Part shown: one piece after another, positions 30,103-45,937 of the stretch
Layout of the letters: each line of letters opens with the position of its first letter
How positions within the stretch are numbered: the first letter of the stretch is position 1
Source of the DNA: Yersinia frederiksenii ATCC 33641
Lineage (GTDB): Bacteria; Pseudomonadota; Gammaproteobacteria; Enterobacterales; Enterobacteriaceae
NCBI RefSeq assembly: GCF_000754805.1
Contig: NZ_KN150731.1
Span: 2,343,886-2,407,885 of the forward strand
Direction of reading: 5' to 3'
Length of the DNA stretch: 64,000 nt
Position numbers and translations under genes: made by a program
Notes under the pieces: generated by a model
The model's input: the letters and a program-made list of their open reading frames with translations, nothing else
Databases searched by the model: none
What the model was told of the DNA's origin: nothing

Positions 30103-32835
30103 ATGCCAGTTAAAAATTTCACCCGGCAGTTGCTCAACGTATTGAGTCGTAACCTGCCCCGCCGCCTGATCCGCCGGGAAACCATGCTAGAAGGAGTTTC
30201 AGCGGGAAGTGCAGCTAAAGATATCCCCGCCGACCTGACTCGGCAGCGTTTGCTATGCGCCAATGCAACGCCACCGCAACTTTATCAACGTTTTCAAAGC
30301 CATCCGGAAGGGCTAACCGAGCAGGAAGCTGAAGCCATTCGCTTGGTCAGTGGCAGTAATCTGATTGAAAATCAGCAAGCTGTCAGTGGGTGGGTTCACC
30401 TATGGCACTGTTATCGCAACCCGTTTAACTTGCTATTGACTATTCTGGCACTGATTTCCTATGCCACTGAAGACCTCACTGCTGCGCTAGTGATTGGTGC
30501 CATGGTGCTAATTTCTACCCTAATGCATTTTATTCAGGAAGCTCGCTCCAACCGCGCAGCCGATGCCTTAAAAGCCATGGTCAGCAATACTGCCACGGTG
30601 ATCCGCAGTGATGCCCATACCGGTAAGAGCGAGCACCACGAGCTGCCTATCTCCCAATTGGTGCCTGGCGATATTATCAAGCTCTCCGCTGGCGACATGA
30701 TCCCGGCAGATTTACGGATTCTGTTTGCCAAAGACCTGTTTATCAGCCAGGCCGCCTTGACCGGTGAATCCCTGCCGGTGGAGAAAGTCGCGCAATGCCG
30801 TGAGTGTGACGAACAGAACCCACTTGAGCGAGATACGCTCTGCTTTATGGGCACCAATGTGGTGAGTGGCTCGGCACTGGCCATCGTTATCGGAACCGGT
30901 AACCAAACTTATTTTGGTTTATTGGCTGAGCGCGTGACTCATCAGGATGAGCAACCCAATGCCTTTCAAAGTGGCATCAGTAAAGTCAGTTGGTTGCTGA
31001 TCCGATTTATGCTGGTCATGACGCCGATTGTGTTGCTGATCAATGGGTTTACCAAAGGTGACTGGTGGGAAGCGGCGCTATTTGCTCTCTCCGTCGCGGT
31101 AGGTTTGACCCCAGAAATGTTGCCAATGATTGTCACATCGACATTGGCAAAAGGGGCTGTAAAGCTGTCAAAACAGAAAGTTATCGTCAAACGGCTGGAT
31201 GCTATCCAGAACTTTGGGGCGATGGATATTCTGTGTACCGATAAGACCGGAACTCTCACACAAGACAAAATCGTGTTGGAGAGCCATATCGACGTATTTG
31301 GTGCCAATTGTGAGCGAGTGCTGCGCTATGCCTGGCTCAATAGCTATTACCAAACCGGGCTAAAAAATCTTCTGGATGTGGCGGTGCTTTCTTCGATGAC
31401 CGACTCCGACATCGCGAAATCTCAGTCGACCGATACTCTGGCGGGTTATCGTAAAATCGATGAGATTCCCTTCGATTTTGAGCGCCGTCGTATGTCCGTG
31501 GTCGTCAGCGATCAGTCTGATTATCATGAGCTTATCTGCAAAGGGGCGTTGGAAGAGATGCTGTCTATTTGCCGCCATGTCCGACAAGGGGATGACGTTA
31601 TCCCAATGACGGATGCATTGATGGCCCGTATCCGTCGTATTACTGATGAGCAAAACCAGCAAGGGTTGCGAGTTGTGGCGGTTGCCACCCGAATTTTACC
31701 GGCTTATCAGCGAAATTATGCTGTTATCGACGAATATGACCTTATTCTTGAGGGATATATTGCCTTCCTTGACCCGCCCAAAGAGAGTACCGCACCGGCA
31801 CTTCTGGCGTTGAAAAAGAATGGCATCAACGTCAAAATTCTTACTGGTGACAATGAGTTAGTAGCACGTAAAGTCTGTAAAGATGTTGGGCTATCGGTTG
31901 ACCGAGTCTTGCGAGGCAATGATATTGAACAGATGAGCGAAGCTGAACTGACGCAAGCCACCCGCACCACAACCGTGTTCGCCAAGTTGACCCCAATGCA
32001 CAAAGAACGCATCGTAAAAAACATGCGGGATGCGGGCCATGTGGTCGGCTTTATGGGGGACGGCATCAATGATGCCCCAGCCTTGCGGGCCGCGGATATT
32101 GGGATCTCAGTCGATTCCGCAGTCGATATCGCCAAGGAAGCCGCTGATATTATTTTGCTGGAAAAGAGCCTGATGGTGTTGGAACAAGGAGTGATAGAAG
32201 GCCGTCGCACCTTTGCCAACATGCTGAAATACATAAAAATGACCGCCAGTTCCAACTTTGGTAACGTCTTCAGCGTGTTGATTGCCAGTGCATTTTTACC
32301 CTTCCTGCCCATGCTGCCACTGCATCTGTTGATCCAGAACTTGCTGTACGATATTTCTCAGATTGCCATTCCGTTTGATAATGTCGACGAAGAGCAACTG
32401 ACCAAACCACAGCGCTGGAACGCCGGTGATTTGGGGCGTTTTATGGTGTTCTTTGGCCCGATAAGCTCCATTTTTGACGTTTTGACCTTTAGCCTGATGT
32501 GGTGGGTATTTAAGGCTAATACACCAGAAATGCAGACACTGTTCCAATCTGGTTGGTTCGTCGAGGGGCTACTGTCTCAAACATTGATTGTGCATATGAT
32601 TCGTACTCGTAAGATTCCATTTATCCAGAGCCGCGCCTCATGGCCACTGTGTCTGATGACACTGGCGGTCGTTGTCGTCGGTATCGGGCTGACCTTCTCA
32701 CCACTGGCTGGGTTCCTGCAATTACAGGCGCTGCCACTCTCCTACTTCCCATGGCTGATTATGATTCTGGCGGGGTATATGGTAACAACGCAGTTAGTGA
32801 AGGGATGGTTTGTCAGGAGATATGGGTGGCAGTGA
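30103..32835 (+). CDS. mgtA: magnesium-transporting P-type ATPase MgtA
   Basis: 910-residue P3B-type ATPase that imports Mg2+ into the cytoplasm under low Mg2+. The phosphorylated Asp380 lies in DKTGTLTQDK, the actuator motif is LTGES, and the hinge is VVGFMGDGINDAPALRAADIG. About ten membrane helices are spread as in MgtA. The N-terminal region (about 1-80) is basic and less conserved. Regulation by PhoP and leader RNA is suggested by upstream sites. In E. coli mgtA is also adjacent to treR. Confidence 0.96.
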   Translation: MPVKNFTRQLLNVLSRNLPRRLIRRETMLEGVSAGSAAKDIPADLTRQRLLCANATPPQLYQRFQSHPEGLTEQEAEAIRLVSGSNLIENQQAVSGWVHLWHCYRNPFNLLLTILALISYATEDLTAALVIGAMVLISTLMHFIQEARSNRAADALKAMVSNTATVIRSDAHTGKSEHHELPISQLVPGDIIKLSAGDMIPADLRILFAKDLFISQAALTGESLPVEKVAQCRECDEQNPLERDTLCFMGTNVVSGSALAIVIGTGNQTYFGLLAERVTHQDEQPNAFQSGISKVSWLLIRFMLVMTPIVLLINGFTKGDWWEAALFALSVAVGLTPEMLPMIVTSTLAKGAVKLSKQKVIVKRLDAIQNFGAMDILCTDKTGTLTQDKIVLESHIDVFGANCERVLRYAWLNSYYQTGLKNLLDVAVLSSMTDSDIAKSQSTDTLAGYRKIDEIPFDFERRRMSVVVSDQSDYHELICKGALEEMLSICRHVRQGDDVIPMTDALMARIRRITDEQNQQGLRVVAVATRILPAYQRNYAVIDEYDLILEGYIAFLDPPKESTAPALLALKKNGINVKILTGDNELVARKVCKDVGLSVDRVLRGNDIEQMSEAELTQATRTTTVFAKLTPMHKERIVKNMRDAGHVVGFMGDGINDAPALRAADIGISVDSAVDIAKEAADIILLEKSLMVLEQGVIEGRRTFANMLKYIKMTASSNFGNVFSVLIASAFLPFLPMLPLHLLIQNLLYDISQIAIPFDNVDEEQLTKPQRWNAGDLGRFMVFFGPISSIFDVLTFSLMWWVFKANTPEMQTLFQSGWFVEGLLSQTLIVHMIRTRKIPFIQSRASWPLCLMTLAVVVVGIGLTFSPLAGFLQLQALPLSYFPWLIMILAGYMVTTQLVKGWFVRRYGWQ

Positions 32836-33092: not shown

Positions 33093-35021
33093 CTAAATTC
33101 GACTCAAACAATCAATCGCAATAGCCTTAAAACTATCAAAATGCTGGCTACTCAATAAACGGCTCATCGAGCGCTCGCGCACAAAGGTCACGAACAGATC
33201 GTAAATCGCCATGGCTTCTTCATAATCGGTTTTACTGATAGCCAGCAGGAAAATAACATGTGCGACTTCGCCATCCCCCCAGGCGATACCATTGGGAGCC
33301 AGTAAAGTGACGACCACGGTTTTCTTGGCTAATAGGCCCAGTGAATGTGGCAGCGCAATTCCCTCGCCTAACATGGTAGATACAATCGCCTCGCGCTCGA
33401 CCACTGAGGGGTAAAAATCCGCATCGACAAACCCTTCTTCTTCCAACTGATGACAGACTTTTTTGAACAACTGCTCCTGAGTCATCGGCTGGTCGATAAT
33501 CATAAAATGGTGACTATCAAAAAACTTTTCCAGCATGTAAGGCCGGGTGCGATCAACCAAAACTAGCTTACCCAACTGCTCCAACTGATATTCCGTCGGG
33601 AATGGCGACATCACCACCACCGGCTTGTTCTTTTCAGCTAAGCGAGAGTTAGAAATAATAAAATCTTCGTCGATATGGTCAAGATTTTCGTATTCACGCA
33701 GGGAAATAGTCTGTGTCATCACAATCTGCGGATACTTACGGGAAATCTGCGCCTGAATCATACGAGTGGTAGAATTGCCCGTGTCACACACCAACATCAC
33801 CTGCGGATGGCGTTGATAACCAATATTATAATGACGCTCCAGCCCGACCCCGATATGTAACACCAGATAGCCAATTTCATTTTCACTCAGACTGTAAGGG
33901 GTATATTTCCCCCAACTGGAAACCGCTGCCAATGTCACATCATAAGCCATCGGATAGTGCTGTTTAATATTAGATAACAGTGGGTTGGGAATGGTAATTT
34001 GATATTTCACCCTAGTTATCATGGTCTTGATATGGGTGAGTAAATCAATCCGCAGTTGCTTATCGCCCTGCAAATTATAGTTATAGTGATCATTGATATA
34101 CGAGAGGATGTAATCCACCAGCGTCTCTTCGTCATCGGCATTGATTTCACTGGGGCGGCTGGTACTGGCCTGACTGGCCTGCACCCGGCGAGCCGCAATA
34201 TTGACACGCAGGTAAGCCTCTTCTGCCGCCGAAATATCTTTACCCGATAAGAGTTTGAGCTCATTAGCCAGACGGCCAGACGCCAACTTAACTGCTTCAT
34301 CCACATCTTCTGCATCAAAATCAGATAATGGATAACCATCAGTGATGCGTTTTATCGCCACTGCGCAGTAGAAAATCAGGTATTGCTCACCTTCGTCGGT
34401 TAACCGTACGGCATATTGCGCTAATAATGCGTGCAATAATCCAGTCAATTCCGGGATGGTTTGGATACTGAGAAACTCATTTTTTAATAATGGGTTATCG
34501 GCGTCTTGCAGTTGCAATTGGAACAATAAATCTGTCAGGCAGGTCCGAATCGCCAATTCGGTACCAAACAATTTCATGCCATAACGTGGTTTAGTTTCAA
34601 TTGTCAGATGGTAGCGGTTTAGCCTTTCTCTCACCTCAGCCATATCATTTTGTAATGTGCCACGGCTGACAAACCATTCATCGGCTAAATCTTCCAGCTT
34701 CAATGAAAAAGCAGAGGTCAGAAAACGAATTAACAGATAGTGAACCCGCTCATTGGCAGTGCGTGGAGTCAGGTGCATTTTGCGATTTTGTTGCTGTAAA
34801 GCACGAAAGCGCTCGGCGTCATCAACCCTTAGCCGGTAGCCGAAGCCCCGGTTATGCACAAAGTGCGCGCCATAATGCTCAAGGATCTCATTCAACGCCG
34901 TGATATCTGCCCGTACAGTACGTGTCGAGACCGCAAAACGTTTCGCCAACTCCTCCTGAGGCAGCGTTTCCGATTGCAGTGCATCGAACATATAGGCCAG
35001 ACGTTGATAGGGAAATCTCAC
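33093..35021 (-). CDS. BglG/MtlR-type transcription regulator with PRD, EIIB and EIIA domains
   Basis: 642-residue PTS-controlled activator. In order: two helix-turn-helix domains (about 1-60 and 90-150; ELAKRFAVSTRTVRADI is the first), two PRDs (about 190-290 and 300-405), an EIIB-Gat-like domain with Cys412 in VCDTGNSTT, and a fructose/mannitol-type EIIA domain with His559 in IALPHSLG. It starts with GTG, with CGGAG 7 bases before it. As the terminal regulator of the adjacent sugar-acid cluster it probably activates it in response to PTS phosphorylation. Confidence 0.85.
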   Translation of the reverse strand: MRFPYQRLAYMFDALQSETLPQEELAKRFAVSTRTVRADITALNEILEHYGAHFVHNRGFGYRLRVDDAERFRALQQQNRKMHLTPRTANERVHYLLIRFLTSAFSLKLEDLADEWFVSRGTLQNDMAEVRERLNRYHLTIETKPRYGMKLFGTELAIRTCLTDLLFQLQLQDADNPLLKNEFLSIQTIPELTGLLHALLAQYAVRLTDEGEQYLIFYCAVAIKRITDGYPLSDFDAEDVDEAVKLASGRLANELKLLSGKDISAAEEAYLRVNIAARRVQASQASTSRPSEINADDEETLVDYILSYINDHYNYNLQGDKQLRIDLLTHIKTMITRVKYQITIPNPLLSNIKQHYPMAYDVTLAAVSSWGKYTPYSLSENEIGYLVLHIGVGLERHYNIGYQRHPQVMLVCDTGNSTTRMIQAQISRKYPQIVMTQTISLREYENLDHIDEDFIISNSRLAEKNKPVVVMSPFPTEYQLEQLGKLVLVDRTRPYMLEKFFDSHHFMIIDQPMTQEQLFKKVCHQLEEEGFVDADFYPSVVEREAIVSTMLGEGIALPHSLGLLAKKTVVVTLLAPNGIAWGDGEVAHVIFLLAISKTDYEEAMAIYDLFVTFVRERSMSRLLSSQHFDSFKAIAIDCLSRI

Positions 35022-35101
35022 TGCTCCACTCCGTTGTTTAGAAAATCATTATTCAGAAGATAGCCCCTGCCAGCATCACTGTCGGGGGCGCATCTCTCAT
35101 A

Positions 35102-36343
35102 TCACTTTTTCTGCACCGGCGGCACAAACACCATTTGTGATGGACTGCCGACGGCGGTATAGCCTGGAACAAAGGTCAATTTGCCACTTTGCTGATCAAC
35201 TTTAAAGCGGGTTATGTTATCGCTACGTTGATTCATCGCGTACAGGTAGTGGCCTGTCGGATCGAGTACCAATGTGCGTGGGTAATCGCCCCGCGTCCAC
35301 ACCTCTTCCACTGGTTTAAATTTACCGTCACCCGTCACCGCAAACTGGCCGATACTGTTGTGCAGACGGTTCGCCACGTATAAGAATTTTCCGTCTTTCG
35401 ATAACGTCAAACCCGCAGCAAAGCTAGTCCCACGATAATCTGCCGGTAATGACGATACTGTATTTAACGGTTTCAACGTGCCTTTTTGTGGGTCTAGTTG
35501 ATAGCTGGTCAGGGTTGAGGCTTCTTCATTAATTAAGAATAGCGTCTTGCCGTTAGGATGGAACACAAAATGACGTGGGCCAGCGCCCGCTGATGATGCA
35601 CTGATATACGGTGGGTCATTAGCTATCAACTGGCCATTGTCTGCATCAAAGCGGTATTGATAAATCCTATCCAGCCCCAGATCGGTGGAAAATACAAATT
35701 TACCGTTGGGGGAGCTGGCAACCATATGTGCATGGGGGCCATTGTGATCACTGATGGCAAAACTCCCTTCCACTGCTGCTGCCGGTTTTGCTGCACCCGC
35801 CGGGCCTTCATCTTGCTGTACAGCGCTGGCATCAGACAGTTTACCGCCACTTTGCACCGGGAAAACGGCCACCGAACCACTGATATAGTTTGCCACCAAC
35901 AAATGGCTGCCAGAGGGCGTCAACGAGAGGTATACCGGCCCCGCCCCTTGAGAATCCACCTGATTAATCAGTGTCAAACTACCATCGACAGGGTTAATGC
36001 TGTATGCCGCAATAGCACCGTGCTTACCGCCATTGTAGTCAGCCACTTCGCTGGCAACATATAGCGTCTTGCCCTGAGCATCCACCACTAACTGTGCCGG
36101 ATTGGCCAATGAGCTGACCAAGGTTTTCCCGGTCAATTCACCGGTTTTGGTATCGACTTGTAGGCGATAAACGCCTTCACCATTCGGATTATAAGTACCG
36201 ACATAAGCGAATGATTGATTAGCTGTTTGCTCGGCATGTGCCAGCGGATTAAACAATGCCACCGTTGCCAGTGCGATACCCGCTGATAGGCTTTTTAAGC
36301 CAGTCAGGTCGGTTAAACCAGAATCTGTTGAGCTGCTATGCAT
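35102..36343 (-). CDS. exported beta-propeller lactonase-like protein
   Basis: 413-residue protein of the 6-phosphogluconolactonase/YbhE (cyclase) beta-propeller family, with repeated motifs such as FVFHPNGKTLFLINE, LTLSKDGKFLYVANR and LVLDPTGHYLYAMNQ. Unlike cytoplasmic Pgl it carries an N-terminal export signal (hydrophobic stretch about 20-36, cleavage near AHA). A periplasmic aldonolactone hydrolase feeding the neighbouring sugar-acid genes is plausible but unproven. It is 164 bases downstream of the aldolase gene, perhaps separately transcribed. Confidence 0.75.
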   Translation of the reverse strand: MHSSSTDSGLTDLTGLKSLSAGIALATVALFNPLAHAEQTANQSFAYVGTYNPNGEGVYRLQVDTKTGELTGKTLVSSLANPAQLVVDAQGKTLYVASEVADYNGGKHGAIAAYSINPVDGSLTLINQVDSQGAGPVYLSLTPSGSHLLVANYISGSVAVFPVQSGGKLSDASAVQQDEGPAGAAKPAAAVEGSFAISDHNGPHAHMVASSPNGKFVFSTDLGLDRIYQYRFDADNGQLIANDPPYISASSAGAGPRHFVFHPNGKTLFLINEEASTLTSYQLDPQKGTLKPLNTVSSLPADYRGTSFAAGLTLSKDGKFLYVANRLHNSIGQFAVTGDGKFKPVEEVWTRGDYPRTLVLDPTGHYLYAMNQRSDNITRFKVDQQSGKLTFVPGYTAVGSPSQMVFVPPVQKK

Positions 36344-36507
36344 ATGGATCCTTACTCATAGGGAATGGCTATCGAATGGTATGGAACTATCCAACCTCAC
36401 AGTCAGGGCACCCGGTTGGGCACCCTGTGGACACTGACTTTCCGTCAAACTTTATTCTAATAAATCAAAATGTTATCGCCAGACAATCGCGCTACCAGAG
36501 CAGGCAG

Positions 36508-37248
36508 TTACGGCACAATCCGCTTCACGATATCCATTAGGGTTTTCACATCTTCCGGGCGAGTATTGCCAGTTTTACTATCAATAATGGAGCTATAAAT
36601 ATGTGGAATAATTTTTGTCACGCCGGCATCCAACGCGATTTGTAGGATTTGCTCGAAATTCTCCAGATCAATGCCACCGGTGGGCTCTAGCCAGAAACCG
36701 GTAGCGGCGCAAGCCTCGGCGACATAACGATATTCGTCGATAGAATCCAGCCCGTTCATTGGGAAGAATTTCACTGAGCTGCCGCCCATATCTTTCAGCA
36801 TGGCAATCGCTGTGGTGATGGGTACAATGGCGTCTTTCTGTTGTGAACTGAGCGGGCCGGTAGAAATCTTCACGTAACCCACTTTAGTGGTCGGTGAAAT
36901 CAGGCCATTGACGACAGTATCGTTCTGGCCCAGCAAGGCTCGACTCGCGCCAACACCGGTAAAAACCTGGTTCACATGTTGTGGTTGAACCTGCTGCGAA
37001 ATCTGGCTGACCATTACCGATTGCTTAGGGTCACCGGCTCCCAGACCAACAGACAAAGCATTATCGATAAGTGCGGCATACTCGCGCATATCTTTGACAG
37101 CGCTGTCGACATCCGGGTAATTCTTCGATAACACACCCACCAACACATGGCCTTCAGCAGCCTGATAAATCTCGCGCGCATTCTCTTTTGAACCGGCCAG
37201 CACATTCAGGCATACCCGGTCACGATAATAATTTGGCGTCAATTTCAT
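36508..37248 (-). CDS. KDPG-type aldolase (DgaF/EF_0839 family)
   Basis: 246-residue TIM-barrel aldolase of the family that includes DgaF. The reaction in the dga pathway is cleavage of 2-keto-3-deoxygluconate 6-phosphate to pyruvate and glyceraldehyde 3-phosphate. The likely Schiff-base residue is Lys160 in SSVKFFPMNGL, followed by a phosphate-binding PTGGIDLENF segment. Three bases separate it from the upstream SelA-like gene. It ends the enzyme part of the cluster. Confidence 0.85.
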   Translation of the reverse strand: MKLTPNYYRDRVCLNVLAGSKENAREIYQAAEGHVLVGVLSKNYPDVDSAVKDMREYAALIDNALSVGLGAGDPKQSVMVSQISQQVQPQHVNQVFTGVGASRALLGQNDTVVNGLISPTTKVGYVKISTGPLSSQQKDAIVPITTAIAMLKDMGGSSVKFFPMNGLDSIDEYRYVAEACAATGFWLEPTGGIDLENFEQILQIALDAGVTKIIPHIYSSIIDSKTGNTRPEDVKTLMDIVKRIVP

Positions 37249-37251
37249 GAC

Positions 37252-38364
37252 TCAGGCTCCCTTAACCAAATGGTTAATACAGGTATAAATCGTCTCAAGT
37301 TGCGGTGGCGTCACACTGCGCACATCGACTTCAATCTTGCCTTCGTTGGCTTTATAGGCGCGGAAATAAATCGCAATATCACCATTTTTGAGCGCCTCAA
37401 CCAATTCTGGCGTTGAACGACCAATTTTGGCTTCATCAAAACTGATTTCAGTCCGCGCAATATCACGCCCAGCCGCATCCCAAACCACTTGGGCTGAAAT
37501 ACCGTCGATGGTATTTAACTGACTGATAAACGGTGTCATTTTCTCAACCATTTGCTGGCCAGTTTCTTTCTCCAATGTCATGTAACTTTCAATGGCGCGG
37601 GTTAGGCCAAGAATACCCTCTTTGCCCACTTTCATCGCCCGACCAATGCCACTGGATTGCAACTTCACCCATTCGACATAGGTTTTCTTGCCTAATACCA
37701 AGCCACTGGTTGGCCCTTCAATGGCTTTAGCGCCGCTGTATATCACTAAATCAGCACCCATTTGGTAGTAACACTGCAAGTCTTCTTCTGCTGCCGCATC
37801 GACAATTAATGGCAATTGATGTTTGCGTGCGATAACCACTGCTTGTTCGACTGATAAAATGCTTTTTTGTACCGAATGGTGGGATTTTATGTACAGGATC
37901 GCCGCAGTATTCGGCGTAATCGCAGCTTCTAGCTGTTCAGGCAGGCACTCATTGGCATAACCAGCTTCTACCACTTTACCGCCACCCAATGTCACCATAG
38001 TATCGACTGGCGCACCAAAGTTAACGTTATGGCCTTTCGGCAGCACGATTTCATGGGGCACAGTGCGAGGGGCTGCATGCAGATTAACCAGTAAATTCGC
38101 ATTGTCTTTGATAATCACGGCGGCAACCGATTGGGCAATCCCGGCCGATGCACAGGACACGACCACCGCACTTTCAACATTCAGTAAACCCGCAATGTAA
38201 GCACCGGTTTTATTCACCAGATCTTTCATTTCAAAGTAATGATTCAGCCCCAATTCCATGGCCTCGATCACATCTTGTCGTGGCGTCGAAACGCCCAGCA
38301 TTGTCATGCGGCCAGAAGCATTAATCACCTGCTTTAACTGGTATTTTTCATAGACTGAAGACAT
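37252..38364 (-). CDS. SelA-like PLP enzyme (DgaE family, D-glucosaminate-6-P ammonia-lyase type)
   Basis: 370-residue fold-type I PLP enzyme of the SelA-like group that includes Salmonella DgaE. DgaE removes ammonia from D-glucosaminate 6-phosphate to give KDPG. The PLP Lys213 is in VIYSGAKAIEGPTSG and the PLP-ring/phosphate region is around VDAAAEEDLQ. Its start overlaps the amidohydrolase end by 17 bases. The substrate here is inferred from the family and the downstream aldolase. Confidence 0.83.
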   Translation of the reverse strand: MSSVYEKYQLKQVINASGRMTMLGVSTPRQDVIEAMELGLNHYFEMKDLVNKTGAYIAGLLNVESAVVVSCASAGIAQSVAAVIIKDNANLLVNLHAAPRTVPHEIVLPKGHNVNFGAPVDTMVTLGGGKVVEAGYANECLPEQLEAAITPNTAAILYIKSHHSVQKSILSVEQAVVIARKHQLPLIVDAAAEEDLQCYYQMGADLVIYSGAKAIEGPTSGLVLGKKTYVEWVKLQSSGIGRAMKVGKEGILGLTRAIESYMTLEKETGQQMVEKMTPFISQLNTIDGISAQVVWDAAGRDIARTEISFDEAKIGRSTPELVEALKNGDIAIYFRAYKANEGKIEVDVRSVTPPQLETIYTCINHLVKGA

Positions 38365-39517
38365 CTTTTAACTTCCCTTCGTCAGTTAATACTAAGTCAC
38401 CGGCAACGACCGCAGCCAGTGGCACCAGATACTTTTCACCGGTTACCGATTTGCCTTCTGAATCATTGAATACCTGAGGCTGCTGTTTCAGCTCAAAAAT
38501 AGTCAGATCAGCGTCATAGCCCACATCCAATACCCCTTTATGGGTGAGACGCAGTGCCTGGGCGGCATTTTCTGTTACACAACCAATGACTTGCTCAAGA
38601 CTCAAGCCGATGGTGAAAAATTTGGACATCACAGTCGCGAGGCTATGCACCGGTCCGCTAATACGGTTGCGGCAATAGATGTCGGAACTGATGGTGTGTG
38701 GGTAAATACCTTGCTTGATAGCAAGTTCTGCGACCTCGAAACTGAAGCTGGCACTGCCATGGCCAACATCTAATAATACGCCGCGTTTAAGTGCGCGTTG
38801 GATAGACTCACGCAAGGTACCTGCGGGGGTTAAAATTCGATTTGGCTTGCCGTTGTAGCAGTGGGTAATAATGTCGCCCTGTGTCAATAAATCGGCAATT
38901 TCATCCAGATCCGGCGGGTTATTACCAATATGCACCATGAGCGGTAATTGATTATTTTCTTGCTGAATTTCTTTAGCGCGTACCAGTGGTTTGATGCCGT
39001 TTTTACCCACTACACTGCTGCTCATTCGCGCTTTTATCCCAATAATAAAACCGGGATTACGGGCTATCGCCTGACTGACCGCTTGCTTATCAATCTGCGC
39101 CATATCGGCTAATTCGTTTTGCGTAACAATGCCGGTTTTTGCAATATTCAGGAAAGCATAAACGTGAGTTTTGGCAGCCCGAGTTAAGCGGTAAAAATCA
39201 TCCACATCGTTGGAACCAGTACTACCCGCATCAACAACCGTAGTGACGCCGCTGGCAACGCCGACTAAATCAGCTTCATCATGATAAATAGGCGAAGCGG
39301 GATAACAGTGAACATGAGAATCAATCCAACCCGCACTGAGGTAATATTTCCCGGCCAGATCCAGCACTTTCCTGGCCGAACAAATCGGAGATTTTGTTTG
39401 ATTGTCTTTATCCGCAGAAATAACGGCATTGATTGCCACTATTTTTCCGTCATTAATTGCGATATCAACCTGACGACCGTCAACTAATACCGCCCCGGTG
39501 ATAATAAAGTCATACAT
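38348..39517 (-). CDS. amidohydrolase/deacetylase-family metallohydrolase
   Basis: 389-residue amidohydrolase-superfamily TIM barrel. The metal-site residues are recognisable: His68 and His70 (DSHVH), a carbamylated-Lys candidate Lys162 (GIKAR), His196 (MVHIG), His219 (THCYNG) and Asp279 (SSDIY). Relatives sit in the same clusters in Enterococcus and Aeromonas. Deacetylation of an N-acyl amino-sugar acid before the lyase step is the natural guess. It overlaps the lyase gene and is separated from the membrane genes by a 12-bp hairpin. Confidence 0.82.
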   Translation of the reverse strand: MYDFIITGAVLVDGRQVDIAINDGKIVAINAVISADKDNQTKSPICSARKVLDLAGKYYLSAGWIDSHVHCYPASPIYHDEADLVGVASGVTTVVDAGSTGSNDVDDFYRLTRAAKTHVYAFLNIAKTGIVTQNELADMAQIDKQAVSQAIARNPGFIIGIKARMSSSVVGKNGIKPLVRAKEIQQENNQLPLMVHIGNNPPDLDEIADLLTQGDIITHCYNGKPNRILTPAGTLRESIQRALKRGVLLDVGHGSASFSFEVAELAIKQGIYPHTISSDIYCRNRISGPVHSLATVMSKFFTIGLSLEQVIGCVTENAAQALRLTHKGVLDVGYDADLTIFELKQQPQVFNDSEGKSVTGEKYLVPLAAVVAGDLVLTDEGKLKDVFSL

Positions 39518-39548
39518 TATCTTATCCCTTTTTTACTTGACGCCGCAG

Positions 39549-39584
39549 CGGGGTAAATATCCAGTTATTTGAATATTTACCCCG
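39549..39584 (-). repeat. perfect 12-bp intercistronic hairpin in the sugar-acid operon
   Basis: CGGGGTAAATAT (39549-39560) pairs perfectly with ATATTTACCCCG (39573-39584) around a 12-base loop, between the DUF4310 and amidohydrolase genes. No T-run follows on the minus strand, so it is probably an mRNA stabiliser or processing site rather than a terminator. Confidence 0.75.
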
Positions 39585-39588
39585 TAGT

Positions 39589-40242
39589 TCAGGAGATCGC
39601 GACTGGGAAAATAGAGCCTAAAATCATAGCTCCCAAAATTGCACCACCGGTGATAGGTTTATTCCACAGATAAAACAGTAATGCGCCAGCTAAAGAACCA
39701 ATCCCAATAGGAATAGATGCGGTAATAGCTGACAGAATAATCAGTGGACCTAAGAAACGACCAGATGAATTACCTGCACCCATCATGACATCCGCACCGT
39801 ATGTCGAATTACTTTGGTTAATCGTGAATTTACGCGCCAAAATAATCAGATAACCGATTGCTAAACCAATAACCAGACCGGTTACCAAGGATGCAGCAAA
39901 GTTAGCCACCGGGAACACAAACCCTGCACCCAGTAATAATGCTGGCACACCCAGACCAACCCCAGTCTGAATTGCACCACCGATATCCAAAATACCAACC
40001 AGTGAACCTTCAATAATACGAGCAAATAAGAAACTGGCACCAAACGCAGCCACTGCGCCATAAACCCCAGTATCCATTCCTGCCCGTAACATTGAAACAA
40101 AGGCCACTTCGTTAAATGCGCCAATACCATATAGGTAGTACATATGGGTACCAGCAAATACGCCGGAGGATAATAATCCTACAAAGATCGGAAATGACCA
40201 GTCGGCATACCAGAAATTATTCTTGGTTTGTTCATCCATCAT
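39589..40242 (-). CDS. DUF4310-family membrane protein (EF_0833 family)
   Basis: 217-residue hydrophobic protein with about five to six membrane segments, Gly/Ala-rich, of the uncharacterised DUF4310 family. A short polar N-terminus leads to DWSFPIFVGLLSSGVFAGTH. It pairs with the DUF4311 gene 18 bases upstream, and the two are taken to form a membrane complex, most likely a transporter; that is inference from the cluster. Tandem ATGs at 40242 and 40239 follow GAGGAG. Confidence 0.8.
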   Translation of the reverse strand: MMDEQTKNNFWYADWSFPIFVGLLSSGVFAGTHMYYLYGIGAFNEVAFVSMLRAGMDTGVYGAVAAFGASFLFARIIEGSLVGILDIGGAIQTGVGLGVPALLLGAGFVFPVANFAASLVTGLVIGLAIGYLIILARKFTINQSNSTYGADVMMGAGNSSGRFLGPLIILSAITASIPIGIGSLAGALLFYLWNKPITGGAILGAMILGSIFPVAIS

Positions 40243-40260
40243 CAAGCTCCTCTCGCTGTG

Positions 40261-41037
40261 TTATTTTCCGCTCAATGCGTTATGAATAGTTTCAAGCCAC
40301 ACTGGTGCACTCAGACTGAATGACTCCAGGAATTTCATATCGAATCCGCGGAAGAAACCACTAAGCACGAATAACAAAACAATGACTGTCATCATGATTT
40401 TAGTGACTTTATTCCAGCCGCTTTCTTCAACACCTTTACCAATTAAAATACCTAAAACCAGGCCCGGTACTGCGTTGCCCATAATCAACTGTGCCAAGCC
40501 GCCAAAAATAGTGGCCCAGAAGCCGGAACGTCGCCCTGCATCAATGGCCGCCAGCCAGAAAATAACAGGCATCACAGTGTTAACCAGAATATTCGCCGCT
40601 GGGACCAATACTTTAATTGCAGTGACCTGTAATGCCGCCGGAACCGCCGATGCAGTGGTATTTAGGAAGCTAACAACAATGACCCCAATAATCCCACAAG
40701 CAATCGCCATTTTTTTCGGGTTATGCATTGTCTCCGCCACATTGCGATTTTTAATCATCAATGCTGCGGCACCCCAGTTAGGAATAATGCGGTGGTCAAC
40801 GTCCTGAGTAAAAGCACCTGCAGCAACTGAAGAGGCCCAGGCGTTGAAGAAGAACCCTAATCCAAAGGAGAAATGCGAAGCTGGATCACCCTCACACGAG
40901 TTCAACTCGCCCAAGGTACGAAACGCCCCCATTCCCTGTATGGTGGGCGCATGGAACATACGGGCGGCCCCAACACCAACCCCCACGCCAACCAGTCCGC
41001 CGATAATAATCGACTTAAAAAGAATGATTAGAAACAT
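40261..41037 (-). CDS. DUF4311-family membrane protein (EF_0832 family)
   Basis: 258-residue protein with about six membrane helices, of the uncharacterised DUF4311 family. The first helix holds the Gly-Val repeat GGLVGVGVGVGAA. The ATG at 41037 has AAGGA 7 bases before it; the open frame continues upstream to 41133 but would then overlap DUF4312 and lacks a ribosome site. Presumed partner of DUF4310 in uptake of the cluster's substrate. No nucleotide-binding or PTS EIIC motif is visible. Confidence 0.8.
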   Translation of the reverse strand: MFLIILFKSIIIGGLVGVGVGVGAARMFHAPTIQGMGAFRTLGELNSCEGDPASHFSFGLGFFFNAWASSVAAGAFTQDVDHRIIPNWGAAALMIKNRNVAETMHNPKKMAIACGIIGVIVVSFLNTTASAVPAALQVTAIKVLVPAANILVNTVMPVIFWLAAIDAGRRSGFWATIFGGLAQLIMGNAVPGLVLGILIGKGVEESGWNKVTKIMMTVIVLLFVLSGFFRGFDMKFLESFSLSAPVWLETIHNALSGK

Positions 41038-41113
41038 CAGTATATCCTTTTCGCTAATCGCAATAATCCAATGTTTTGGAATTGCGGCTTCAAGAATGAA
41101 GGTTGCATTGTTT

Positions 41114-41410
41114 TTATTTAGAAACGAAAACAACCTTATCTGTATTAATGATTGTTACGTTCACGGTAATATCGAGTTCAACGCTGTACGTCTTTCTTTC
41201 CCGAGGCAGAAAAAAGAATAAAAACTTTTCATTTTTTACTGATAATTCTGCTTTTAATACTTTTACGTCTTGTGGTTCAATCCGCAGTAAAATATTTTGT
41301 GTCGACTTCAACACAGTATTCTGGACATTACCGAGTGCATTGGCGAAGGCTTTGGCTTTAGTATCGCCTTTGCCTTTGACCTGCACTTGGGTGGTATATT
41401 GCTCTTTCAT
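41114..41410 (-). CDS. DUF4312-family small protein (EF_0831 family)
   Basis: 98-residue soluble protein of the DUF4312 family. It has a beta-rich N-terminus with a basic KGKGDTKAKAFANALGNVQ segment and ends in a long strand-rich half. It has no signal peptide or membrane helix. Its ATG overlaps the stop of the SFCGS gene (TAATG). Function unknown; always found with the DUF4310/4311 pair as far as I recall, so a cytoplasmic subunit of that system is likely. Confidence 0.78.
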   Translation of the reverse strand: MKEQYTTQVQVKGKGDTKAKAFANALGNVQNTVLKSTQNILLRIEPQDVKVLKAELSVKNEKFLFFFLPRERKTYSVELDITVNVTIINTDKVVFVSK

Positions 41411-41775
41411 TATGGCTGACCATATTTCTTGATATAGGCTTCCACTAACTTCTGTCCTAATTCCTCTTTATCCATAAAGCCAAAGCCCAGTACTTTGCAG
41501 CCTTCATTTATTGCCGTCACACCTTCTTCGACTGAACGCATGCCGTACTTTGCTTTGTAACCATATTTATTTTGGGCGGTAATAGCACCGGCACCACCAC
41601 TGCCACAGAATGAAATACCGAAATCTGCTTTTTCGCTATTCATCACATCACCCAATTTCATATCTGCGGCAACACCGGGAATAACCACCACGCGGCCACC
41701 AGCTAATTCAACGCCTTGCCCAACTTTCTGGCCTTTTCCTAAACGGTCGCCAATCACAACGGTAATTTGACTCAT
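41410..41775 (-). CDS. glycine-rich SFCGS-family protein, RpiB/LacAB-like
   Basis: 121-residue protein of the SFCGS (EF_0830) family, annotated elsewhere only as glycine-rich. The stretch around Cys57 (DFGISFCGSGGAG, then ITAQNKYGYKAKYG and KVLGFG) lines up well with the active-site loop and following strands of ribose-5-phosphate isomerase B (ICGTGVGISIAANKFAGIRA, NVLAFG). That suggests a sugar-phosphate isomerase-like fold with the catalytic Cys kept. The role is inference. It lies 23 bases after the PRD gene. Confidence 0.78.
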   Translation of the reverse strand: MSQITVVIGDRLGKGQKVGQGVELAGGRVVVIPGVAADMKLGDVMNSEKADFGISFCGSGGAGAITAQNKYGYKAKYGMRSVEEGVTAINEGCKVLGFGFMDKEELGQKLVEAYIKKYGQP

Positions 41776-41798
41776 AGTCTCTTCTCCAGATCAGTATT

Positions 41799-42143
41799 TT
41801 ATGGGTTATTATCTTTCGCTACTTCAAAATGCACCGACAACAAATAAGCTTCTTCAATAGGTAAATTGGCAAATTTATCGACCACCTGCTGCGCCATTTG
41901 CATCGAATGTGCTGAAATCTCATCAAATAATGATTTCTCCACTTCAGGTAATGGTTCGCCAGTTATTGAACGCAGCACCATGGCCCGAATATGTGATGTC
42001 AACATTTGCTGCTGAACGGCATTAGTAAAAATATTCTCGGCATTTAACATCGCGGTAATTTCAGCTAATACCCGCTCGGTGATGATAATTGCTTCCTCCA
42101 TTCCAGGGTTCTCGGCTGCATTCAATGCGGCTACATCATTCAC
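41799..42143 (-). CDS. single-PRD protein (EF_0829 family), first gene of the cluster
   Basis: 114-residue protein that consists of one PTS regulation domain, with the two phosphorylatable His candidates at His51 (LTSHIRAMVLR) and His105 (LLSVHFEVA). There is no DNA- or RNA-binding domain, so it may titrate or relay phosphate to the large regulator at 33-35 kb. It starts with GTG at 42143, with GAGG 9 bases upstream. It leads the minus-strand operon; no convincing promoter was picked out in 42144-42480. Confidence 0.75.
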   Translation of the reverse strand: MNDVAALNAAENPGMEEAIIITERVLAEITAMLNAENIFTNAVQQQMLTSHIRAMVLRSITGEPLPEVEKSLFDEISAHSMQMAQQVVDKFANLPIEEAYLLSVHFEVAKDNNP

Positions 42144-42484: not shown

Positions 42485-42521
42485 AACACCCCCTCTCCTA
42501 TGGCGTGGGGGTGTTGTTTTT
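42485..42521 (+). terminator. terminator-like hairpin in the rnk leader
   Basis: AACACCCCC (42485-42493) pairs perfectly with GGGGGTGTT (42507-42515), followed by GTTTTTA. It is oriented like a plus-strand intrinsic terminator but lies 30-odd bases before rnk with no plus-strand gene upstream, so it may act as an attenuator of rnk. The rest of 42144-42484 contains no gene I can see. Confidence 0.6.
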
Positions 42522-42552
42522 ATGTTTTGCTGAAATTGAATTGGAGAGTGGT

Positions 42553-42963
42553 ATGACCAAGCCAACCATCACGATTAACGAGCTAGATGCTGAACGTTTG
42601 GATGCGTTACTGGCGCAACCGGCTTTTGCCGGTTCTGTGGTCGCAACAGCGCTCAATGAAGAACTGGATCGTGCAGAAATCCTACCACCTAACGCCATTC
42701 CGGCTGATGTGGTGACCATGAACAGTCGCGTTCGTTTTCGCGATCTGAACAGCCAGGAAGAGCATATTCGCACATTGGTTTATCCCGCATCGCTGAAAGA
42801 CAGTAACGAGCAACTCTCAGTTATGGCCCCATTAGGTGCCGCACTGCTGGGGCTGCACGTCAATGACGAAATTAGCTGGAAACTGCCGGGTGGGGATGAA
42901 GCCCGTATTACCGTGCTGGAATTGCTGTATCAGCCGGAAGCCGCTGGCGAGTATCACCGCTAA
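42553..42963 (+). CDS. rnk: nucleoside diphosphate kinase regulator Rnk
   Basis: 136-residue GreA/GreB-family protein that binds RNA polymerase near the secondary channel; a short N-terminal coiled coil (about 5-45) precedes the C-terminal FKBP-like domain ([20 protein letters not shown], and the final YQPEAAGEY). The short coiled coil lacks the acidic tip needed for cleavage. It affects Ndk levels in E. coli by an unclear route. The ATG at 42553 has GGAGAG upstream. Convergent with cybC. Confidence 0.93.
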
Positions 42964-43017
42964 ATCTGGCAAGCTATGAGTAGAGGGAATATCTATCCTA
43001 TTTATAGCCAGCTAAAG

Positions 43018-43045
43018 AAGGGTAATGGCGATTGCTATTACCCTT
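43018..43045. terminator. shared rnk/cybC terminator hairpin
   Basis: AAGGGTAAT (43018-43026) pairs perfectly with ATTACCCTT (43037-43045) between the convergent genes. On the minus strand it continues with CTTT, so it works better for cybC. Confidence 0.65.
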
Positions 43046-43066
43046 GATGGCTAGGCTAGATTGAGG

Positions 43067-43453
43067 TTAACGGTATTTTTTATGGTAGGTATCGCGAGTG
43101 ACTTTAAAGCCCTGCGCCGCTTTTTTTGCTTCATCCAGTTTGCCTTGATCCGCTAATGCCTTCGCCTGATCAATTTCGCCAATCAACAGATCTAAACCAT
43201 GACGAAAATCTTTCACCTCTGCACTGCCTTCACCCAAACTTTTTAACTTAGTTGGGATGCCTTTCTGTGCATCCAGAGCCGCAGCCCGCATCGCAGCTAA
43301 ACCTTGCTTCATCACATCAGTGGAGTCGGCTTTAAGTACCTTGCCATAATTCTCGGCAATGGTATCCATATTATCGGCCACACTGGCCGCCATCGCTAAA
43401 CTGCTGGCGCTGAGTAATACTGCCGCCATTAACGCCATCATTTTCTTACCCAT
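43067..43453 (-). CDS. cybC: soluble cytochrome b562
   Basis: 128-residue periplasmic four-helix haem b protein. A signal peptide (about 1-22, cleavage after AMA) gives a mature start A-S-V-A-D-N-M that places the haem ligand at Met7, and the second ligand His is in DTYHKKYR at the C-terminus. There is no CxxCH, so haem is not covalently bound. AAGGA is 8 bases before the ATG at 43453; a GTG two codons upstream is too close to it. In E. coli cybC also neighbours pmbA. Confidence 0.94.
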   Translation of the reverse strand: MGKKMMALMAAVLLSASSLAMAASVADNMDTIAENYGKVLKADSTDVMKQGLAAMRAAALDAQKGIPTKLKSLGEGSAEVKDFRHGLDLLIGEIDQAKALADQGKLDEAKKAAQGFKVTRDTYHKKYR

Positions 43454-43659
43454 GCTCACATTCCTTATATACCCTTCGCTTTGGCGCTACCTGATTGTGG
43501 CGCCAATGACTCTGGGTAGGGTTATTGTTATCAGATCATTGGTACATTGCTCATACTTAACATAGGCAATGGATGGCAAAACTGACAACGATTTTTTATT
43601 GCCAGTTGAAAACGAGGGAATTATACAAATGAGGCAAAAGGTGAGAGAGGAGTTAGATA

Positions 43660-44298
43660 TCAGCAATAAGCAGCAATTTTTTCTCTATTTTCCGCGATTA
43701 AGATGACGCCCCATTGAGTTGTATCGGGATGCTTGCTCCAGATTTTATCTTCTGGAATGCTGGCCCCATTATAAGGAACTCGATCGCCGCTATAGGGGTA
43801 AAACTCGCCGACTTCAGAATCGAGAATAAACACTGCCAGCTTATCTGACTCCCGTGCAATTTTCTGCCACAGCGCCTGACCGGCTTCATATTGTTTATTG
43901 TCGCTCATTAAAATAATACCGCACTTAAGCACTAAGACTTCATAAAATAGTGTTGCAAGCCCTTGACCACGTTCCTCCAGCTCAACCACCATCCCTTCTA
44001 CTTGAAAGAGCCTGGAATCCTCCCAAAACCGCTTAACAGCAAGGGTTTTTTCACCAAACTCTTGCCTGGCTACCAGATCAAGACCCGCAATAACCCGATG
44101 ACGCGGTATACCGTTAAAATCCTCCATTTTCATACGGATAATGGCTGCTTTCGGTACTTTTTCGTCAAAAATAACGCCATATTCTGTATTAGATAACTCA
44201 AATTCATGAATTAACGTAAATTCTCTGGCAACGGTTGCTGGGCTATAAGTACTTGGCATCACAATCATATTTGAACTTCCCCGCATCAATACCGGCAT
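43660..44298 (-). CDS. GNAT-like protein of unknown function
   Basis: About 212 residues, not assigned to a named gene. The middle contains a GNAT-like acetyl-CoA loop (ERGQGLA, near residue 110) followed by a helix and strand, then MSDNKQYEAGQALWQKI, a pattern common in acetyltransferases where a late Gly/Ala helix follows. I start at the ATG at 44298 because AAGGG is 9 bases upstream; the frame is open to 44400 but that stretch is the pmbA terminator. A later ATG at 44268 also has a purine-rich site. It lies between pmbA and cybC, which are adjacent in E. coli, so it is an insertion. Confidence 0.55.
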   Translation of the reverse strand: MPVLMRGSSNMIVMPSTYSPATVAREFTLIHEFELSNTEYGVIFDEKVPKAAIIRMKMEDFNGIPRHRVIAGLDLVARQEFGEKTLAVKRFWEDSRLFQVEGMVVELEERGQGLATLFYEVLVLKCGIILMSDNKQYEAGQALWQKIARESDKLAVFILDSEVGEFYPYSGDRVPYNGASIPEDKIWSKHPDTTQWGVILIAENREKIAAYC

Positions 44299-44367
44299 AA
44301 TCATTATCCCTTTGACTATAAAACATCCATTTAAGTTGGGGAAGATTAGCATGTCAGGGAAATGAAC

Positions 44368-44397
44368 AAACAAAACCGCCAGTATTGCTACTGGCGG
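44368..44397 (-). terminator. pmbA terminator
   Basis: CCGCCAGTA (44376-44384) and TACTGGCGG (44389-44397) form a perfect 9-bp stem with a 4-base loop. On the minus strand it is followed by TTTTGTTTGTT, a canonical intrinsic terminator 32 bases after the pmbA stop. Confidence 0.9.
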
Positions 44398-44428
44398 CAT
44401 ATGGCACGAGAATATGACAGATAGGTTA

Positions 44429-45769
44429 TTATTCGCCTGCTATCTTCATGGCGGGTAATAAGATAGAACCGCACTGAATGTTACTGCGGGTTTCAATATC
44501 ACTGCCTATGCTGACGATATTGCGCAGCATGTCTTTCAGATTACCGGCGATGGTTATCTCACTCACCGGATACTGAATTTCACCGTTTTCAACCCAGAAA
44601 CCTGCCGCACCACGGGAATAATCACCGGTAACGGTGCTAACCCCCTGGCCCATTAGTTCAGTCACGACCAAGCCTTTATCGAGCTGCTTAAGCATACCCG
44701 CGAAATCCTGCCCTTGACCGGCAATGCGCCAATTATGGATGCCACCTGCGTGCCCAGTGCTTTGTAGCCCCAACTTACGGGCAGAATAGCTGGTTAGCAG
44801 ATAAGTTTGCAGCACCCCGTCCTTGACGATTTCCCGCTGCACCGTGCGCACACCTTCACTGTCAAATGGCGTTGAGGCCAAGCCGCGCAGTAAATGTGGA
44901 TGCTCTTCGATAGTTAACCACTCTGGCAGAATTTGCTTGCCGAGATGGTCGAGCAGGAAGGTTGATTTGCGATAGATATTGCCGCCGCTGATGGCCGAAA
45001 CCAAGTGACCAAACAGCCCAGTGGCAACTTCAGCAGCAAACAGTACTGGCGACTGCATAGTCGGTAATTTACGCGGTGATAAGCGAGATAAGGTACGACG
45101 GGCGCACTCTTCACCAACCCATTCCGGGCTGGTTAAATCTTCTATCCGCCGACCAATGGTATAGGCGTAGTCGCGCTCCATATCACCATTGTGCTCGGCA
45201 ATAACACTGCTAGACAGGGAATGGCGGCTCGAACAATAGCTCTGCAGCATGCCGTGGCTATTACCAAAGACCTTGATGCCATAGTGACTGTTAAAACTGC
45301 CACCTTCCGTATTGGTAATCCGCTTATCTGCTTGCAATGCCGCCTGCTCTGCTCGAGCAGCTAACAAGATACCTTGCTCGGCATCTAAATCGCTCGGATG
45401 GAACAAATCCAGATCCGGAGCATCAAAGGCCAGCAAAGATTTTTCAGCCGGGCCGGCATAAGGATCTGGTGAGGTATAGCGAGCAATATCTAATGCCGCC
45501 TGCACCGTACGAGCTACTGCGTCTGGGTTTAAATCAGTGGTAGACGCACTGCCTTTACGCTGCTGGTGATAAACGGTAATACCCAGCGCGCCATCGCTGT
45601 TGAACTCCACGTTTTCCACTTCACCAAAGCGAGTGCTGACGCTGATTCCGGTGGTTTTGCTTACGGCTACTTCGGCCGCATCAGAACCCGCGCGGGCCAA
45701 TTCCAAAGCCTGTGCAACTGCTTGTTCCAGCGTTTTACGCTGTTGTGCAACTTGAGTGACTACTTTCAT
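44429..45769 (-). CDS. pmbA: TldE/PmbA metalloprotease subunit
   Basis: 446-residue partner of TldD. The TldD/TldE heterodimer degrades unfolded peptides, matures microcin B17 and destabilises CcdA. TldE lacks the metal-binding HExxxH, as expected for this subunit. Conserved blocks [28 protein letters not shown] and [12 protein letters not shown] are present. The ATG at 45769 matches the E. coli start; 44 further codons upstream are open but not family-like. Its partner tldD is in the same window at 53.4 kb. Confidence 0.95.
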
Positions 45770-45937
45770 CAGTCTGCCATAATTAATGAGATAATCGTTC
45801 AGGAAAGTGTCGTAATACGACCACTTACACGGATAAAATAGAGAACACCATGGTTCTGAGTCTATCAGAGATCTTTGTACAATTTCGCAGAAAGCCAACA
45901 ACCTGCTACGATTAGCCTCTTTTTAAGGAATTTGACC

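Follow-up and report, generated by a model that had tools for sequence, protein, structure and literature searches.

The 64,000-nucleotide stretch of Yersinia frederiksenii ATCC 33641 DNA analysed here (the window) carries, on its minus strand at 33093-42143, a ten-gene operon that we tentatively read as dependent on the phosphotransferase system (PTS) and as serving the import and breakdown of an N-acyl-2-amino-2-deoxy-aldonic acid, a reading to which we give nearly an even chance. Its substrate is perhaps, and most likely, N-acetyl-D-glucosaminate, which is oxidised N-acetylglucosamine; the question of the substrate is separate from that of the mechanism, and the confidences given below therefore overlap. 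Transport, substrate and phosphorylation are deduced from what was observed directly, namely the protein families, their conserved order, conserved residues and, in Bartonella, a gene for a fusion of HPr and enzyme I (EI) beside the set. Support comes from the families and the operon order, from the Bartonella fusion in a class where DUF4311 was otherwise absent from the sample, from an arginine triad kept throughout the DgaE-family lyases, from a genome (G677) that has the set without a canonical KdgK, and from the invariant Cys of SFCGS and His of the small PRD protein.

Transcription from 42143 would yield, in order, a small PRD protein (41799-42143; TIGR03582 at 130 bits against a cut-off of 69, Pfam PRD at 20.1 bits, under its cut-off of 23), the glycine-rich protein SFCGS (41410-41775; PF14272), the small protein DUF4312 (41114-41410; PF14189 and TIGR03578), and the membrane proteins DUF4311 (40261-41133; PF14188 at 401 bits, TIGR03580 from residue 34, the true start probably lying near 41037) and DUF4310 (39589-40245; PF14187 at 354 bits, TIGR03579). 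These are followed by an EF_0837-family amidohydrolase or deacetylase (38348-39517; TIGR03583 at 547 bits against a cut-off of 432, 2ics at 353 bits), a DgaE-family, pyridoxal phosphate (PLP)-dependent ammonia-lyase (37252-38364; TIGR01437 at 591 bits, cut-off 385), a DgaF-type aldolase for 2-keto-3-deoxy-6-phosphogluconate (KDPG) (36508-37248; TIGR03581, and the solved 3lm7 at 515 bits), a lactonase of the seven-bladed propeller type, which is an optional member (35102-36343; PF10282 at 352 bits), and a PTS-controlled PRD/EIIA regulator (33093-35021; Pfam HTH_11, Mga, PRD and EIIA_2). Several neighbouring genes overlap or almost touch (SFCGS and DUF4312 by 1 base, deacetylase and DgaE by 17, with a gap of 3 bases between DgaE and the aldolase), and the genes are therefore taken as one operon. 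The original prediction for this DNA had named a SelA-like DgaE, a DgaF aldolase, an amidohydrolase, the DUF4310/4311/4312 and SFCGS proteins and a separate PRD protein, all of which are present as scored profile matches. It had also held that EIIC and EIID are absent; indeed, neither these nor kinase families were found in the ten cluster proteins or in the five flanking open reading frames (ORFs; 30103-32835 and 42505-45901), which is the part of the 64 kb that was scanned. The lactonase, although first in the interval that it covered, went unmentioned, and the regulator lies outside that interval.

The gene set itself is not new. Eight of the ten operon proteins score above curated NCBIfam cut-offs (TIGR03577, TIGR03578, TIGR03579, TIGR03580, TIGR03581, TIGR03582, TIGR03583 and TIGR01437). 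Apart from DgaE, which falls in TIGR01437, these seven match uncharacterised NCBI families named after EF_0829-EF_0839 and AHA_3910-3917, so the group had been recognised earlier, without a function, and is listed in the NCBI family library as EF_0829-EF_0839. A search of the literature on DUF4310, DUF4311, DUF4312 and SFCGS found no paper on their function, as judged by titles and abstracts. In the excerpts available of two papers, amino-sugar metabolism is suggested for EF0839 (PMC7701990) and the EF0839 promoter is listed as urine-activated (PMC2912369).

A protein scan of species genomes, from which the best 80 of 363 relatives were kept, gave loci that all belong by title to the Enterobacterales, and its counts speak for that order. 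The eight genes from the PRD gene to the aldolase gene (five of the transporter set and three for enzymes) were all found in 78 of the 80 loci, and they stood in identical order on a single strand in 78/78 uncut loci, the other two (L026 and L079) being broken by contig ends. This constancy shows that the grouping is not due to chance. The regulator accompanies the set in 79 of the 80 loci and the lactonase in 36. DUF4311 is 99% identical to that of the window in Y. alsatica, about 72% in Bartonella and 66.5% in E. faecalis, which is strong conservation for membrane proteins. It was detected in 55 of the 119 genomes sampled from the window's family (including one decayed copy, in G619, and one borderline fragment, in G695) and in 12 of 398 from the phylum, all 12 inside that same family. 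Viral contigs searched with the E. faecalis DUF4311 held no relative. Weak matches that stay under the cut-off, in E. coli among others, were set aside as probably due to chance, and the one such locus that was read (L094) appears to encode a J-domain protein. In G700 (L139, 4893-7872), the aldolase lies in two pieces about 1.4 kb apart and the frame of DgaE is short, which looks like the effect of an insertion that broke the operon.

On the PTS-dependent reading, the periplasmic lactonase, where present, would open any lactone, and DUF4311 and DUF4310 would make up the permease in the membrane, with help from DUF4312, SFCGS (the Cys protein) and the small PRD protein. On import or immediately afterwards, the cargo would receive a phosphate at C6, drawn from phosphoenolpyruvate (PEP) via EI and HPr. 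The EF_0837-type enzyme would then take off the acyl group, the DgaE-type enzyme would take off ammonia to give KDPG, and the DgaF-type aldolase would convert KDPG into pyruvate and glyceraldehyde-3-phosphate, while the PRD/EIIA regulator would sense the phosphorylation state of the same EI/HPr chain. The order of enzymatic steps is that of the original prediction, and it fits the families found; the notion of the DUF4310-4312/SFCGS set as a substitute for a mannose-type PTS permease likewise fits the gene content.

Conserved residues were counted over the window protein plus deduplicated relatives above a score limit, that is, 71 of 81 relatives for DgaE (at least 380 bits), 80 of 82 for the deacetylase, 77 of 82 for the regulator (at least 600 bits, a limit that excludes the E. 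faecalis regulator) and 37 of 37 for the lactonase. In the deacetylase, His68, His70, Lys162, His196, His219 and Asp279 are invariant in the 81 rows. Residues of this kind (His, Lys and Asp) are expected of amidohydrolases, and the enzyme is predicted to remove the N-acyl group. The N-termini of the lactonase look like export (Sec) signals in the 38 rows, as judged by eye rather than by a signal predictor; the protein is probably periplasmic, which fits a C1-oxidised sugar as the source. The aldolase passes the cut-off of the DgaF equivalog NF047796 (400 versus 300 bits). For the Salmonella D-glucosaminate-6-phosphate ammonia-lyase (DGL), the available part of one study places Arg301, Arg332 and Arg346 near the substrate phosphate and Arg226 near the carboxylate by manual docking, with His163 as the proton donor (PMC9529869). 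When DgaE is aligned to that enzyme (7lc0), Lys213, His163 and the phosphate-site arginines 301, 332 and 346 are invariant in 72/72 rows, and His162 is kept in 71, a Bartonella sequence having Ala. Lys213 was taken as the PLP lysine by its motif, whereas the passage in PMC9529869 prints Lys-217.

Support for a link to the PTS was found on two Bartonella plasmids (from bat faeces, ~56 kb each), where the genes run PRD-SFCGS-DUF4312-DUF4311-DUF4310-deacetylase-DgaE-aldolase-regulator and are followed by a gene annotated ptsP. The product of this gene is an HPr-EI fusion (PTS_HPr_family at 75 bits, cut-off 48; PTS_I_fam at 511 bits, cut-off 342), in which an HPr domain (PF00381, 82 bits) at residues 9-86 is joined to a complete EI (PEP-utiliser N, mobile and C domains). 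Since the two fusions are 99.7% identical, the plasmids are counted as one event. The nearest relatives outside Bartonella in the plasmid collection, from Caballeronia and Paraburkholderia, are 54-55% identical, and the best-ranked of them (H9) adjoins ptsG, annotated as a glucose EIIBC, its neighbourhood being the only annotated one of the three opened. A sugar-type EI/HPr thus accompanies the set in a class whose sampled genomes had no DUF4311 (0/385). This class (that of the genome G008) was identified as the Alphaproteobacteria from a hit to GcrA, which we take to be a marker of that class and whose control also responds in one archaeon. No EII is listed for the HY406 plasmid, whose gene table was seen in full, such PLSDB tables being at times incomplete; for the HY761 plasmid, 19.6 of 55.9 kb were seen. 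On these plasmids, the operon lies near an inverted duplicate of rep/par genes (L097, L124 and L125), and a set of type VI secretion genes is present on HY406 as well, part of one being seen on HY761.

In the regulator, the EIIA residue His559 is present in 78/78 rows and the EIIB-like Cys412 in 73/78. The original prediction had given this protein PRD, EIIB and EIIA domains: PRD and EIIA_2 are recovered by Pfam, which finds no EIIB, and a possible EIIB-like region is suggested solely by the Cys412 motif. Dedicated EIIA or EIIB proteins are absent from the operon, the part of the genome looked at for them, where the regulator alone has EIIA_2 and the EIIB-like Cys. HPr-like genes near 12 clusters (27-36 bits) were considered as a further link to the PTS and rejected; they look like a gene of the rpoN region, presumably NPr, and their nearness like an effect of synteny.

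Several observations weigh against the PTS-dependent reading, some bearing on the mechanism and others on the substrate. As to the mechanism, no EIIC or EIIB match for DUF4310 or DUF4311 was found in Pfam, NCBIfam (no EIIC or EIID at E 0.1) or PDB sequences. The arginine triad of DgaE also occurs in 8t7j, whose substrate is not known to us, and its conservation is therefore support rather than proof. Moreover, the HPr-EI fusion could serve only the PRD regulators. A KdgK match (E 1e-60 or better) is present in 53 of the 55 DUF4311-positive Enterobacteriaceae sampled, in 52 of them above the curated cut-off, so that an operon lacking a kinase is, taken alone, no evidence. In E. faecalis, a PfkB-family kinase that reaches no cut-off for 2-keto-3-deoxygluconate (KDG) kinases adjoins the aldolase. 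Finally, according to the accessible part of a study of Pseudoalteromonas, N-acetyl-D-glucosaminate is a carbon source that is deacetylated and deaminated without prior phosphorylation, after which a KDG kinase acts, and this ong pathway works with an SSS transporter (PMC9537276).

The main rival explanation built on these points is that DUF4311/4310 would be an ion-driven carrier of the free acid, with enzymes that use unphosphorylated substrates, KdgK phosphorylating KDG and the PTS controlling only the PRD regulators. The E. faecalis kinase and the near-universal KdgK make such a route possible, and we regard this explanation as a serious one, clearly short of an even chance. It accounts poorly for the full HPr-EI on the Bartonella plasmids, for the docked phosphate-site arginine cluster kept in DgaE, and for G677, in which the eight genes and the regulator are single frames and the best KdgK-family match has 89 bits against a cut-off of 400. 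The case of G677 concerns one genome and is weak evidence; the other KdgK exception, G619, has a decayed DUF4311 in a genome that is 49% complete.

As to the substrate, DgaE misses the cut-off of the D-glucosaminate-6-phosphate equivalog NF047797 (361 of 600 bits), and at position 226, the docked carboxylate site, it has Lys in 45 and Arg in 27 of the 72 rows. The idea that the DUF4311 set is linked to chitin via lytic polysaccharide monooxygenases (LPMOs) was rejected: no association with LPMO_10 was seen (11/55 positive versus 11/64 negative genomes, Fisher p 0.81), and LPMO_10 is absent from the window's own genome. All three observations would fit the same route acting on another acid (D-glucosaminate, N-acyl galactosaminate or mannosaminate, or one with a different N-acyl group). 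We consider this a real possibility, somewhat under an even chance, and one that overlaps with the other explanations. It is opposed by the DgaF score above its own equivalog cut-off and by the E. faecalis locus, where an extra EIIC-GH170 pair points to chitobiose-like sugars.

This EIIC belongs to the lactose/cellobiose family (TIGR00410 at 393 bits, cut-off 236; the cut-off of 434 of the narrower cellobiose model is missed), and it is accompanied by a MupG/GH170 protein. In the part of PMC12791066 available, the use of N,N'-diacetylchitobiose by L. paracasei requires a cellobiose-type PTS and a GH170 enzyme. The resemblance between the two pairs supports a substrate of the N-acetylglucosaminate type, and by analogy E. 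faecalis may also import oxidised chitobiose. The PfkB-family kinase would then be needed because phospho-hydrolysis would leave the acid half free. In the E. faecalis locus (L096, 18591-19333), the aldolase is split over two ORFs of 163 and 84 aa that overlap, which may reflect a frameshift or a sequencing error. In Aeromonas, one study that sought such a route describes, in the part available, homologues of LPMO and KdgK, whereas OngB and OngC had at most distant matches (PMC11653859), a gap that the present set could fill. The Aeromonas caviae record (L099) has hits to the PRD protein, SFCGS, DUF4312, DUF4311, the aldolase and the regulator, a weak one to DUF4310 and none to the deacetylase or DgaE, the set being incomplete in that record.

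Both DUF4310 and DUF4311 contain hydrophobic segments and are predicted to be permease subunits. Their AlphaFold2 models are too poor for a fold comparison (mean pLDDT 45.5 for DUF4311; 58.2 for DUF4310, with pTM 0.51), and the Foldseek search with the poor DUF4310 model, which gave no match at E 0.001, has no bearing either way on an EIIC fold. Homology of either protein to YhfT was rejected as having no sequence support (hhalign P 0.29 each), and a repeated short match of DUF4312 to RecA in the PDB was also rejected. The five-protein DUF set might instead act at the membrane as a sensor or as an enzyme complex, a general permease taking care of uptake. A weak similarity of SFCGS to sugar-phosphate isomerases and the lack of any paper on the function of the set in the literature searched would agree with this explanation, which we nevertheless hold to be quite improbable: in 78/78 uncut loci, two highly conserved hydrophobic proteins occupy the permease position of an operon that otherwise has no permease.

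The Cys57 motif of SFCGS is kept in 95/95 sequences. In the small PRD protein, His51 and His105 are invariant in a 20-row alignment; by pattern, the first His is found in 95/95 sequences and the second in 94/95, the single miss (L014) still having its His. SFCGS is a possible distant relative of RpiB/LacAB. Pfam LacAB_rpiB matches 16 of 18 members under the cut-off (best E 0.0012; 16.6 bits for the window protein, cut-off 24.7), NCBIfam RpiB/LacB models match at E 0.0009-0.09, and hhalign aligns SFCGS with RpiB at P 3.2e-5, with the Cys loops in register, the RpiB alignment having three usable sequences. In control comparisons of SFCGS and YhfU with four unrelated alignments, P was 0.20-0.62. 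This relationship is weakened by matches of DUF1685 to 12/18 members (best E 0.0061) and of DUF2620 to 6/18 (best 0.0024), by a PDB profile search with the SFCGS alignment that gave no RpiB at E 1, and by a single-sequence PDB search in which RpiB appeared only at E 0.32. A second and longer RpiB/LacAB-like protein, which has a CGTG loop, is also encoded by the genome of the window (L110, a 230-residue frame).

SFCGS also aligns over most of its length with YhfU of E. coli (DUF2620), at P 0.00096 untrimmed and, tenfold weaker, 0.0096 trimmed, and the Cys loop of YhfU is present in 21/21 sequences. A pairing of a PRD protein, a Cys protein and a membrane protein may therefore occur twice, in the window set and in the yhf cluster. 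One could go further and suppose that DUF4311/4310 and their three small partners (the PRD protein, SFCGS and DUF4312) are a PEP-dependent, group-translocating permease of a new class, with no sequence relationship to the EIIC superfamilies known so far. The PRD His and the RpiB-like Cys would relay phosphate to the incoming sugar acid, and in E. coli yhfTUY, as a second branch, the PRD-Cys pair would be used again alongside a different membrane protein. We think this extension rather unlikely. A yhf-type cluster is also present in the window's own genome (L141, 9578-14806), with hits to YhfT, YhfU, Php, YhfX, YhfY and YhfZ and none, in that stretch, to YhfS or YhfW.

The five flanking ORFs scanned encode a P-type ATPase, Rnk, cytochrome b562, a protein without a match and PmbA. 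The unmatched ORF (246 aa, at 43660-44400) lies between the genes for cytochrome b562 and PmbA, and no Pfam family matched it at E 0.001. Over the window, no Rfam family reached its gathering score, the tRNA scan found none, and promoter- and terminator-like sites were no more numerous than expected by chance.

The observation behind the original prediction is confirmed, and its interpretation is partly supported and sharpened, though unproven. As to its phosphate-linked transporter, the Bartonella HPr-EI, the DgaE arginines and G677 speak for it, while the lack of homology to EIIC or EIIB, the E. faecalis kinase and the possibility that the PTS acts on regulators alone speak against it. Were the permease of the PTS type, a much-studied machinery would gain another class of PEP-dependent transporter, and four uncharacterised families would at once acquire a function. 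Should it prove an ordinary carrier, there would still be a catabolic route for an oxidised amino sugar that can be tested in Serratia, Pantoea, Erwinia, Klebsiella and related bacteria.

Among known systems, the EF_0829-EF_0839 and AHA_3910-3917 set comprises the same families as the window operon. The one E. faecalis locus read directly differs from the window in its extra EIIC, GH170/MupG protein and PfkB kinase, with no lactonase shown, and its regulator is only distantly like that of the window (77 bits). The RpiB/LacAB isomerases align with SFCGS around the Cys loop, SFCGS being shorter and under the Pfam cut-off. The yhfTUY genes of E. coli, like the window set, combine a membrane protein (YhfT), a small Cys protein (YhfU) and a small PRD protein (YhfY); however, YhfT is not similar to DUF4311 or DUF4310, and the other enzymes are different. 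The Salmonella dga regulator is, we presume, of another type than that of the window. The ong pathway of Pseudoalteromonas, known here from the description in part of PMC9537276, shares the chemistry (deacetylation, deamination and KDPG) but differs in its D-aminoacylase-like OngB, its OngC deaminase, its SSS transporter, KdgK and MurR/RpiR regulator and in having no early phosphorylation. Compared with Salmonella DgaABCDEF, the window operon has no mannose-type EIIABCD, has an extra deacetylase and encodes a DgaE under the equivalog cut-off; the two have in common a DgaE-family lyase and a DgaF-type aldolase, together with PTS uptake, which is described for Salmonella in the available part of PMC9529869 and proposed here for the window operon.

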